A stretch of 53,098 bases of DNA, taken from a virus. The DNA lies in IMG/VR virus record IMGVR_UViG_3300030090_000465, positions 1-53,098 of that record. One strand, given 5' to 3'. A program made the translations under genes and the position numbers. Numbering within the stretch: position 1 is the first letter of the stretch; every line of letters begins with the position of its first letter. Below, piece after piece: positions 3,583 to 33,366 of the stretch. The notes beneath the pieces are model-generated. The model had not been told where the DNA came from. It made no database searches and saw nothing but the letters and a program-made list of their open reading frames with translations.

Positions 3583-3753
3583 TTATTTTTCAAGCTCTTT
3601 ATGATTTACGGGATTATTAGGATTTCTAAAAACACGATCATAATTATCATCATATTTCTTTTTATCTTCAGCTTTCATATAGGCAGCACGAATTTTAACT
3701 TTATTATTAACATTAAACCGTACTGGATTTTTTTCACTTCCTATTTGTGGCAT
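3583..3753 (-). CDS. Small charged hypothetical protein, 56 aa
   Basis: ATG 3753 to TAA 3583, preceded by AAGGAAATATAGT. The product begins MPQIGSEKNPVRFNVNN and ends NPVNHKELEK; it is hydrophilic and charged with no recognised domain. It starts 11 bases after the stop of the PqqA-like gene and ends 2 bases before the gp11-like start, so it shares the late transcript. Function not recognised. Confidence 0.7.
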   Translation of the reverse strand: MPQIGSEKNPVRFNVNNKVKIRAAYMKAEDKKKYDDNYDRVFRNPNNPVNHKELEK

Positions 3754-3764
3754 ACTATATTTCC

Positions 3765-3836
3765 TTACCTATTGCTGTAATACATTGTGATTTCAAAACC
3801 AAGTCTAACATTTTCATAAGTAGGTTTAGTCCACAT
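3765..3836 (-). CDS. pqqA: PqqA-like PQQ precursor peptide, 23 aa
   Basis: ATG 3836 to TAA 3765, with a strong Shine-Dalgarno GGAGGT 8 bases upstream. The product starts [13 protein letters not shown] and ends [10 protein letters not shown]. PqqA is the ribosomal precursor of pyrroloquinoline quinone; its Glu and Tyr in an E-x3-Y motif are cross-linked by the radical SAM enzyme PqqE with the chaperone PqqD. Here the motif is E15-ITM-Y19, the same positions and the same 23-residue length as I recall for Klebsiella PqqA, with Trp2, Pro5, Arg11, Gly13 and the C-terminal SNR also shared. No pqqB-F gene is in the window, so any PQQ synthesis would use host enzymes. It is the first gene after the terminator that follows the capsid gene. 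A structural role for such a short peptide cannot be excluded. Confidence 0.8.
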
Positions 3837-3854
3837 AATAATTACCTCCAATAA

Positions 3855-3884
3855 AATTAAAGGGGGCATATTTCAGCCCCCCGT
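3855..3884 (-). terminator. Rho-independent terminator after capsid gene
   Basis: On the leftward strand GGGGGC (3881-3876) pairs with GCCCCC (3867-3862) around an 8-base loop, followed by TTTTAATTTTA. It lies 6 bases past the capsid stop and just before the PqqA-like gene. It would cap very high capsid transcription and let a fraction read through into the tail genes. Confidence 0.85.
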
Positions 3885-3889
3885 AATAT

Positions 3890-4879
3890 TTAGTCAATGC
3901 CGTAGAACGCAGAAACCAATGCTTCTGGACGTAGTACTTTAGCTCCATATACATGAAGACCTCGTACTATATCACCAAAGCTATCAGGATCACGAATTAC
4001 TTCAGTACTAGTAATAGTCTGAGCAGTTGCCGTGGATGACATATGACCTGCAATACACTTACCTGCTGCATTAGAGGTAGAAGCAATATTGTTAGTCTTG
4101 TACATATCAAATCCACGCAACTTACCAGTTGATACTAGTCCGTTACGGATTGAACCTTGACCTGCGTTGTAATCAACAGACAGAAGTTTAGAACTGCTTT
4201 GTACAAGCTGCTCATAAAACTCTGGGTTTGCTGCGAACCAACGACCTTCTTCTGGAACATTTTGCTCATCAAGAAGACGAGCCATGTGTGAAAGAACGTC
4301 AATAGGATCATGCTCACCAGAAGCAAAACCTATGTCTAGATTACCAGTACCATCAAAAGTACCTGCTGCTAGATCAGTTGCGTTGTCAGAACCTAAAATG
4401 TGATTAGGGCTAGAAGATGATACACCTGCAAACATTACTGCAAGCACACCTGCATCAAACGCATCTTTGATTGAATAAGCTGCTGAAGATGCAGCAACGT
4501 CACGAAAGTTAACGTGTGACATATTAGTTTCAATGTCATCTACGATAAACTTAAATGCGTTTGCTGTATCAACAACCAAGTTAATTTCTTGGTCTGTCAA
4601 CTTAGTCGCAGTTACGTCTTGTCCCCTTTCATACTGATAAACAGTAATTTCAGGTTCTTTGATAATTCTTACAGAATCACCATATGCCGCAATCTCTCCT
4701 GCATAATCTGTATTAGTAATTGCTTCTACTACAGATGATTTTCTAAAAAAGTTTAAAACAGTTTTAGAATAAATTGCAGGTAAGAAATACGAGTTTGTTT
4801 GACCCGATACGGAATTTGCAAAGTTTGCGTTAGTATCCGTAGACGGTTCAAAATATTGGTCAGATTGATTATAAGCCAT
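3890..4879 (-). CDS. Major capsid protein
   Basis: A 329-residue protein located directly after the scaffold-like gene and followed by a strong terminator, the classic position of the major coat protein. The sequence has the style of T7-like/marine podovirus coats: N-terminal 'SYFLPAIYSKTVLNFFRKSSVVEAI', 'GDSVRIIKEPEITVYQYERGQDV', and C-terminal 'VIRDPDSFGDIVRGLHVYGAKVLRPEAL'. These fit an HK97-fold coat with N-arm, P-domain and the usual final strand. Start at ATG 4879 follows GAGGATATTACA. Confidence 0.85.
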   Translation of the reverse strand: MAYNQSDQYFEPSTDTNANFANSVSGQTNSYFLPAIYSKTVLNFFRKSSVVEAITNTDYAGEIAAYGDSVRIIKEPEITVYQYERGQDVTATKLTDQEINLVVDTANAFKFIVDDIETNMSHVNFRDVAASSAAYSIKDAFDAGVLAVMFAGVSSSSPNHILGSDNATDLAAGTFDGTGNLDIGFASGEHDPIDVLSHMARLLDEQNVPEEGRWFAANPEFYEQLVQSSSKLLSVDYNAGQGSIRNGLVSTGKLRGFDMYKTNNIASTSNAAGKCIAGHMSSTATAQTITSTEVIRDPDSFGDIVRGLHVYGAKVLRPEALVSAFYGID

Positions 4880-16052: not shown

Positions 16053-16138
16053 GGACAGGTATGCAAGTGGTTAAAGCAAACAGTCTGTAAAACTGTCACC
16101 TTTAGGTTTCGTAGGTTCAAATCCTACCCTGTCCACCA
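16053..16138 (+). tRNA. tRNA-Tyr (anticodon GTA)
   Basis: Acceptor GGACAGG (16053-16059) pairs with CCTGTCC (16128-16134). There is a D arm TGC...GCA, an anticodon stem ACAGT/ACTGT with loop CTGTAAA (anticodon GTA), a long class II variable arm as expected for bacterial tRNA-Tyr, and a T arm GTAGG-TTCAAAT-CCTAC. Discriminator A and CCA are encoded. It sits between tiny early genes and probably supplements host tRNA. Confidence 0.95.
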
Positions 16139-31703: not shown

Positions 31704-31886
31704 TTAATATCTTCTAAATAAATCTTCAGCAGCACAGTGATCCATAGCTCTGCAAATCCTTACATTTTGCATATATAATTGTTGATCCATCCAATTCCAC
31801 TCAGGATAATCTGACATTTGCATACTGACTTCGCTTAAAGAACATCCTGTAAGTGATAGTAAAATTATTATTAATAGTCTTCTCAT
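31704..31886 (-). CDS. Small lipoprotein, 60 aa
   Basis: Signal MRRLLIIILLSLTGC with lipobox L-T-G-C15, so processed by signal peptidase II and attached to a membrane. The mature part is ~46 residues with Met/Trp-rich text and two further cysteines (ICRAMDHCAAED). Size and position near the M15 peptidase allow an outer-membrane spanin role, but no proline-rich stretch is seen. Overlaps its neighbour by 4 bases. Confidence 0.7.
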   Translation of the reverse strand: MRRLLIIILLSLTGCSLSEVSMQMSDYPEWNWMDQQLYMQNVRICRAMDHCAAEDLFRRY

Positions 31887-32086
31887 TGTCCTGCCATCAT
31901 CCTCCTATCGACATTACAATAACTAATGTTATCGCACCCACCTGAGTTTAAAATATTTTGATTGCTTGGAATATTACGCATAAAAATATCTTGGTTTCTG
32001 GCATCTTGCATGGCCCAATCTTGAGCAGACCTTTCCGGCAAACTACTGCAACCAGTTATAACTAAAGCAATAAGTAAGTATCTCAT
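31883..32086 (-). CDS. Small lipoprotein, 67 aa
   Basis: Signal MRYLLIALVITGC-SS, lipobox ITGC13. The mature part shares features with the next lipoprotein (W-x-M-Q-x-x; QDIFMRN versus QLYMQN; two C-terminal cysteines), so the two are probably diverged paralogues. The MRYLL start equals that of the adjacent cytochrome fusion. Could be spanin-like or assist the secreted oxidoreductase; unknown. Confidence 0.7.
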   Translation of the reverse strand: MRYLLIALVITGCSSLPERSAQDWAMQDARNQDIFMRNIPSNQNILNSGGCDNISYCNVDRRMMAGQ

Positions 32087-33366
32087 TGTGCTACTAATCT
32101 CCTGTTGTTTCTTTCGGTTAGCATTTCCTGATAACCTTCTTCATCAAGATGAGTTACTGCTATCCAAGCATGAGTCATTTCATCTCCTGTTCTACTGCCT
32201 CCATAAACCCACTGATCTGCATCAGGGTTGTTAGGATTATCGTCAGTGTTGTCATACCATTGTTTAAGAACTAATACTGCCCCTGTTGGAATCAAAGGTG
32301 CAAAGTCTGGATCATATATGTGACTGTGATGCCATGTTGCACTCCAGTTAGATACCTGACTAATTTGCTCAGTTATTCCAGTATCAGGGTAAAATATTTC
32401 AAAGCTTGCTGCGTTCATTCTTAGGTGTCCATGAGGTTGCCATGAATCAATGCGAACAGGGTGATCAAAGGAGTGGAATCCCTGAGTCATGTGATAACCA
32501 TGAGGAGGAATAACAATATCATCTTGATCGCTTATCCTGTAAAGCTTGAGGTCTTGAGCATATGTAAGTGCCTTAGATTCCTCTGGAGAGTATAGCCATA
32601 GTCCTATCTCTACAACATTATCTTCAATAATAGTTCCGGGTGCTATAGCTCCTAAACCACCGGGAAACATATGAATGTCCCAAGCTATCTCAGAGTTAGC
32701 AGGTATGGTACGACAGACACCTTCAGGTACTATCTCGCCCCATTTACCCATAGCATACTCTGTCAACATCCCGTATCTTTCACCATCAACATTAACGGAG
32801 CTATTGGCATGATGCACTACACTCTTAGCATCGCCTCTTGGCTTAACTTGGATAGCTTTAATACATCTATCCTCTGTCAACCCACTAGCTACATTGTGTT
32901 TGTGCCATAGGTCATTACCACTGGCAGGTATATCTATAGGAGTAGAAGGAATAACCATTGTAGGCTCTCCAAACTCTCCGTAGAAGTTCCACTGATCGGG
33001 GTCTGAAAGGGCCGGAGGTTGTACTACAACATCTGTATTTCCATACTCTGATCCGGTATCTACCCACTCTACTATCGTGGCTATATCGGCCTCTGAGAGC
33101 CTCCAATCACCATGTAATTCCTGTATTCCTATACCCTGATCATAGGCATATGGCGGCATCTCTCTGTTAGCAACTTTAAGTTGTATCAAAGGACTCCACG
33201 GTCTGACTTGATCATAGGTTTCGAACTGCATTGGGCCAATCCCACCATCACGGTGACACACAACACAATTATTATTTATTATTTCAGCTACATCATCTAC
33301 ATAAGTAGGTGCTCCATGAGCCATAGAGCTACACAACATAGCTCCAACTAGTAGTAAATATCTCAT
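32083..33366 (-). CDS. Secreted cytochrome c-copper type II monooxygenase fusion
   Basis: A 427-residue exported protein: signal peptide about 1-18 (MRYLLLVGAMLCSSMAHG), then a c-type cytochrome domain (~22-108) with heme motif C34-VV-C37-H38 and likely axial M70 in REMPPY. The following domain fits the copper type II ascorbate-dependent monooxygenase family (PHM/dopamine beta-hydroxylase). CuH ligands are H185-H186 and probably H232 (IHMFPGG); CuM ligands are H312-x-H314 (QPHGHLRM) and M397 (GDEMTHAWI). Such enzymes hydroxylate C-H bonds with O2, here perhaps fed by the heme. Substrate unknown. It sits between the M15 peptidase and lipoproteins with 1-4 base spacing, so is a late gene acting in the periplasm. 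Host maturation of heme and copper is needed. Confidence 0.85.
   Translation of the reverse strand: MRYLLLVGAMLCSSMAHGAPTYVDDVAEIINNNCVVCHRDGGIGPMQFETYDQVRPWSPLIQLKVANREMPPYAYDQGIGIQELHGDWRLSEADIATIVEWVDTGSEYGNTDVVVQPPALSDPDQWNFYGEFGEPTMVIPSTPIDIPASGNDLWHKHNVASGLTEDRCIKAIQVKPRGDAKSVVHHANSSVNVDGERYGMLTEYAMGKWGEIVPEGVCRTIPANSEIAWDIHMFPGGLGAIAPGTIIEDNVVEIGLWLYSPEESKALTYAQDLKLYRISDQDDIVIPPHGYHMTQGFHSFDHPVRIDSWQPHGHLRMNAASFEIFYPDTGITEQISQVSNWSATWHHSHIYDPDFAPLIPTGAVLVLKQWYDNTDDNPNNPDADQWVYGGSRTGDEMTHAWIAVTHLDEEGYQEMLTERNNRRLVAQ

Follow-up and report, generated by a model that had tools for sequence, protein, structure and literature searches.

A pqqA gene behind the capsid gene

The window, i.e. 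the whole stretch of 53,098 nucleotides analysed here (IMG/VR record IMGVR_UViG_3300030090_000465), is a 53-kb HMO-2011-type podovirus with head, portal and terminase PHROGs, a DNA polymerase A and a ribonucleotide reductase. Its capsid protein is 60% identical to that of HTVC115P and 45% to that of HMO-2011, and the DNA_pol_A domain used to assign phages to the HMO-2011 type is present; the DNA polymerase of this group has an unusual domain structure that is typical of HMO-2011-type phages (PMC10580990). A tRNA-Tyr gene (anticodon gta) lies at 16053-16138. The features discussed below are collected in Table 1.

Table 1. Features of the window considered in this study, with positions counted from its first base
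Feature	Position	Strand	Basis or remark
Small conserved 'MPQIGSE' gene, other edge of the slot	3584..3754 (approximate)	-	Sequence
pqqA	3765..3836	-	23-residue PQQ precursor peptide; PF08042 and TIGR02107 matches
Shine-Dalgarno GGAGGT of pqqA	3845..3850	-	Sequence; ~8 nt ahead of ATG
Terminator-like GC hairpin in the capsid gene/pqqA gap	3861..3882	-	GGGGGGCTGAAATATGCCCCC then U-rich tail
Major capsid protein, HMO-2011 type	3890..4879	-	PHROG 267 (major head protein); among isolates, HTVC115P matches best (60%)
cytC, 427-aa secreted protein (signal peptide) combining a CVVCH cytochrome c domain with a PHM/dopamine-beta-hydroxylase-fold domain	32083..33366	-	

A first-pass annotation of this DNA had described a 23-codon PqqA-like gene behind the capsid gene, with a strong Shine-Dalgarno sequence but with no mention of its strand. 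The gene is there, on the minus strand (ATG TGG ACT AAA CCT ACT TAT GAA AAT GTT AGA CTT GGT TTT GAA ATC ACA ATG TAT TAC AGC AAT AGG TAA), while the plus-strand frame of the same interval has no PqqA reading; the ribosome-binding site could be assigned to GGAGGT, and every PqqA mark that had been listed is present in the translation (M1-W2, P5, G13, E15-x3-Y19 and S21-N22-R23). The arrangement that marks membership of the family, a Gly two residues before the Glu of a Glu-x3-Tyr pair, is found as G13-x-E15-x3-Y19. The HMM search that had been suggested as a check gave 37.2 bits for Pfam PF08042 (E 3e-10, cut-off 21.1), with 0/14 control genomes matched, and the NCBIfam equivalog TIGR02107 agreed with 44.2 bits (cut-off 20); PHROGs holds no model matching the 23-aa peptide. 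These matches, the recurrence of this PqqA peptide at the corresponding site of further viral contigs and the fact that pqqA codons vary mainly at third positions confirm 3765-3836 as a real PqqA ORF, beyond chance. The usual context of PqqA, with pqqB-E on the same replicon, does not define the peptide and is absent: neither the window nor any of the virus loci tested encodes pqqB-E, and the host must therefore supply the enzymes.

In nearly all relatives, the capsid gene or pqqA is followed by the 'MPQIGSE' gene. Among the 80 relatives closest by capsid, the slot that this gene closes is mostly empty, with pqqA in six (L002, L003, L005, L021, L062 and L066) and a different tiny ORF in a few, and over all capsid loci 21/92 are pqqA-positive, with four trait changes on the capsid tree. 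About 20 related contigs have the small ORF behind the capsid gene that the first-pass annotation had proposed to look for, and the disruption of its frame, which had been considered as a counter-indication, was not seen in relatives: L032 and L039 are cleanly without the whole cassette that their neighbours L003 and L021 carry, and no decayed pqqA copies were seen among the capsid relatives. The nearest isolate, HTVC115P, has no pqqA in the slot. As pqqA is missing from most near relatives, it is dispensable. The slot appears to serve as a landing site for tiny genes. In the HMO-2011-type phages L009, L018 and L019 it is taken, straight after the capsid gene, by very small ORFs rich in cysteine (MCECKNCTCK, MSCTNKSCECKHCTCK), and in L007 by MEITYVYRGVKYTVKR.

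The hairpin that separates pqqA from the capsid gene may act as a partial terminator upstream of pqqA, which means that expression at the level of the capsid gene cannot be assumed. A G-run/C-run hairpin pattern 3' of the capsid gene is found in 81/92 relatives, whether pqqA is present or not. All computational checks named in the first-pass annotation went in its favour, but the 'high-output' part of its proposal of a late operon is weakened by the hairpin. A TATAAT at 4868 was set aside as a promoter, being located within the first capsid codons.

Distribution of viral pqqA

Scans of viral and prokaryote sequences with degenerate DNA patterns for the 23-codon gene revealed that standalone viral pqqA is widespread across unrelated phages and mostly unannotated. 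The pattern G-F-E-[VI]-T-M-Y was found in at least 120 stretches of IMG/VR, each a PqqA-like ORF, and the window-type pattern x-Y-E-x-[VI]-R-[LF]-G in at least 119 viral stretches versus 12 across prokaryote genomes totalling 257 billion bases. Nine of these 12 precede pqqB and three lie on MAG contigs without pqqB. We did not count as hosts the MAG contigs L320, L324 and L326 (bins named Neomarinimicrobiota, Verrucomicrobiales and Euryarchaeota); their pqqA is of the YE type (the phage type), pqqB-E are absent, and they are probably virus contigs in bins. L320 also carries a cytC gene.

A search of 50,697 phage records returned 12 PqqA matches, ten in true phages and two in bacterial contigs filed as phage. 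Counting positives only, 9/10 have Methylophilales/OM43 hosts and differ among themselves in kind (Venkman, MEP301, MEP401/402, P19250A and four Melnitz phages), and the tenth is a podovirus from a spring metagenome. With an alphaproteobacterial-type PqqA query no further phage group was recovered, the Melnitz phages giving weak matches at most. 'Acinetobacter phage MD-2021a', of which CAKLQF020000010.1 and CAKLQH020000055.1 match PqqA, was rejected as phage evidence, the first of these being a bacterial contig with the full pqq operon (pqqA-pqqE), ppk and fur.

That relatives might carry pqqA unannotated had been predicted at the outset, and this is the case for Venkman, MEP301, MEP401/402 and P19250A, where nothing is annotated at the site. 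In Melnitz the gene was likewise overlooked, the sole annotation there (MZ577095.1, 74848-74943) being a 'hypothetical protein' on the strand opposite pqqA. With only 23 codons, pqqA is missed by standard annotation.

Selection on the peptide

Two conservation scans used patterns that stop before Glu15 and leave both E15 and Y19 free. Both residues, whose conservation in relatives the first-pass annotation had called for, were kept in 93/93 window-type and 124/124 OM43-type viral sites (217/217, the sites not all being independent). Codons 15-19 occur in 25 distinct DNA versions, which encode EVTMY or EITMY only, V/I16 being the sole protein change, and Thr17 is encoded by all four codons. Given this diversity at the DNA level, the invariance of E15 and Y19 must be a property of the peptide, beyond DNA kinship. 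The C-terminus past Tyr19 is variable (SNR, KQV, KNS).

The invariance also speaks to the possibility that phage PqqA is a decoy, which occupies PqqD/PqqE, lowers PQQ and stops periplasmic oxidation by the host. Excess substrate-like peptide could, in principle, sequester a chaperone or an enzyme, and the varied residues after Tyr19 would be in line with such a role, but in a decoy the Glu or Tyr should be lost occasionally, whereas neither the reactive residues nor the core vary across the 217 sites, which were collected without bias towards them. Furthermore, the secreted redox enzymes carried alongside pqqA suggest that oxidation is promoted. A working substrate is thus favoured, and we consider a decoy very unlikely.

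Origin of the gene and host of the phage

A bacterial counterpart of the window pqqA is found in L327 (the marine Pseudohongiella AG-439-P13), where pqqB follows it: 67/72 bases, 22/23 residues and 17/20 comparable codons are identical. In L330, with pqqB, pqqD, E and C downstream, the match is 65/72 bases. The identity to L327 makes pqqA look like a recent acquisition from a host, and by this measure a Pseudohongiella-like bacterium was almost certainly its source. The window thus holds a host-derived metabolic gene in a genuine virus genome (capsid, terminase, portal, DNA polymerase), as expected of an auxiliary metabolic gene, which would also change the metabolism of the host during infection.

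Pseudohongiella-clade genomes encode several PQQ alcohol dehydrogenases that pass the cut-off of TIGR03075, and homologues of the 427-aa cytochrome protein are found at 68-73% in the same four Pseudohongiella-clade genomes, suggesting that its gene is host-derived as well. Both genes indicate the same host clade, and we infer that the phage infects Pseudohongiella-like bacteria, even though the isolates nearest to it in capsid sequence are phages of Pelagibacter.

A recent capture could also be a mere passenger, i.e. a host gene of no gain to the phage. The small number of codons in which it departs from the host gene and the many relatives that do without pqqA are compatible with this; however, pqqA is retained with synonymous-biased change over many divergent phages and at different genomic sites, which makes a passenger extremely improbable.

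A secreted cytochrome c-PHM protein, and an operon of its family with pqqA in other phages

The 427-aa protein encoded by cytC has invariant residues C34, C37 and H38, H185, H186 and H232, H312 and H314, and M397, and the copper-ligand residues (HH-H / HxH-M) are unchanged in 25 relatives. Its Pfam cytochrome c matches are weak and below the cut-off (E 0.002), and no Cu monooxygenase profile was found for it in Pfam, where the weak cytochrome c matches were all that appeared, or in NCBIfam. In the AF2 model (pLDDT 82) the C-terminal domain matches DBH/PHM in Foldseek with E about 1e-11 to 1e-10; the protein is thus predicted to be of PHM-type build, yet it is not filed as a family member. The family has 75 loci in IMG/VR and none in the 50,697 phage records. 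In the Pseudohongiella-type genomes G001-G004 there are 10-18 family matches each, and some distant ones adjoin PQQ dehydrogenases. In the window, two small lipoprotein-like ORFs directly follow the gene (31704-32086, minus strand) and an endolysin gene directly precedes it.

In several other phage lineages, one set of which is contractile-tailed, cytC and pqqA form a cytC1-cytC2-pqqA operon with gaps of 13-15 bp. A cytochrome c-PHM gene lies immediately 5' of pqqA at 29 of ~302 viral sites (some contigs being counted twice), the gap mostly being 13-15 bp. In L475, the gene behind pqqA encodes a 690-aa protein that was considered as a PQQ dehydrogenase but is a CHASE2-adenylate cyclase. Among HMO-2011-type phages, cytC was present in 6/6 near-complete pqqA-positive genomes (the window, G105, G106, G107, G147 and G154), three of which were found via cytC itself or share ancestry, and in 0/5 pqqA-negative contigs of at least 44 kb. 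Because of the provenance of those three genomes, and because G136 has cytC without pqqA, the tie between the two genes in this group is a loose one.

It could be argued from the operon, the co-occurrence in near-complete genomes and the distant host paralogues next to PQQ dehydrogenases that the PqqA-derived product serves chiefly the phage's own cytochrome c-PHM oxidases, the genes together making up a single phage module for a periplasmic oxidation, with general PQQ supply being secondary. G136 does not fit this, cytC is missing from most pqqA contigs tested (many of them fragments) and in the window the two genes are 28 kb apart. The PHM fold is not known to depend on PQQ, and we regard such a primary use as unlikely. 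A broader arrangement seems more plausible, if still tentative and somewhat short of an even chance: in phages of PQQ-using marine bacteria, RiPP-type PqqA, from which host enzymes would make the cofactor, and two secreted cytochrome c-PHM-type copper oxidases, encoded in one operon, might form a periplasmic oxidation module that raises both the cofactor and the capacity for electron transfer and oxidation.

Proposed role of phage PqqA

PqqE, together with PqqD, joins the Glu and Tyr of PqqA, and PqqA is consumed, one peptide per PQQ, so that PqqA made by the phage would keep up or enlarge the pool of PQQ. We think it likely that this HMO-2011-type marine phage encodes a functional, host-derived PqqA that is fed to host PqqB-E and in this way sustains or raises PQQ. 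This reading builds on the gene, its family membership, the selection on its peptide, its host-clade origin, the absence of pqqB-E from the virus and the cytC operon seen elsewhere, and we infer from there that pqqA is expressed, that PqqA is processed and that PQQ and the phage are affected. Host PqqE/PqqD would cross-link the phage peptide at Glu15-Tyr19, host proteases would trim the cross-linked product, and PqqB and PqqC would complete PQQ. The enlarged or sustained pool could then serve the numerous PQQ-dependent dehydrogenases of the host and perhaps also the phage's secreted cytochrome c-PHM-type oxidase, so that periplasmic oxidation and respiration would be kept running.

Precedents from cellular systems point in the same direction. 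The gene pqqA was among the single genes whose overexpression increased PQQ in Gluconobacter (cited in PMC7936290), 70-80% of purified PqqA added to a cell extract was converted to PQQ (cited in PMC9851590), and a methylotroph chromosome is described as carrying extra standalone pqqA copies (PMC9851590). On these grounds, a phage pqqA could plausibly sustain or raise PQQ without bringing along an enzyme gene.

If this is true, phages steer a host cofactor by providing its peptide precursor in place of an enzyme, and infection would be linked to how abundant marine bacteria oxidise methanol, alcohols and sugars in a PQQ-dependent manner. The cytochrome c-PHM operon furthermore opens an uncharacterised enzyme family. 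On a practical note, the presence of pqqA in cultured OM43/Methylophilaceae phages means that these ideas can be tested at once in isolates.

Comparison with known systems

PqqA was reported in the Lake Baikal virus VP_266 and proposed as an auxiliary gene of methylotroph viruses (PMC7678222), and viral pqqA is listed in a 2026 reservoir study (PMC13188868). A phage PqqA is therefore not entirely new. In the literature outside subscription journals we found no report of PQQ in HMO-2011-type phages or of a cytC-pqqA operon; two papers on OM43 phages do not mention PQQ, and in the Melnitz paper it is solely a medium supplement. The distribution, donor and operon of viral pqqA thus appear to be unreported so far.

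Compared with the Pseudohongiella-like PqqA (PF08042, TIGR02107), the window gene agrees with L327 in length and in the residues and bases given above, but stands alone without pqqB-E, has Tyr for Phe at position 20 and has a different ribosome-binding region. The extra methylotroph copies (PMC9851590) likewise lie apart from pqqB-E and provide more substrate for one enzyme set, but they are chromosomal whereas the window copy is viral. With PHM and dopamine beta-hydroxylase the 427-aa protein shares the C-terminal fold and the HH-H / HxH-M copper-ligand pattern at 10-15% identity, while differing from them in being fused to a cytochrome c domain, secreted and bacterial or phage-encoded. VP_266 is like the window in encoding PqqA in a virus, in a paper that also has a viral methanol dehydrogenase (PMC7678222), but it is one annotated case from a freshwater methylotroph virus, whereas here pqqA is found in HMO-2011-type and contractile-tailed marine phages, with another host clade, cytochrome c-PHM partners and a measured distribution.
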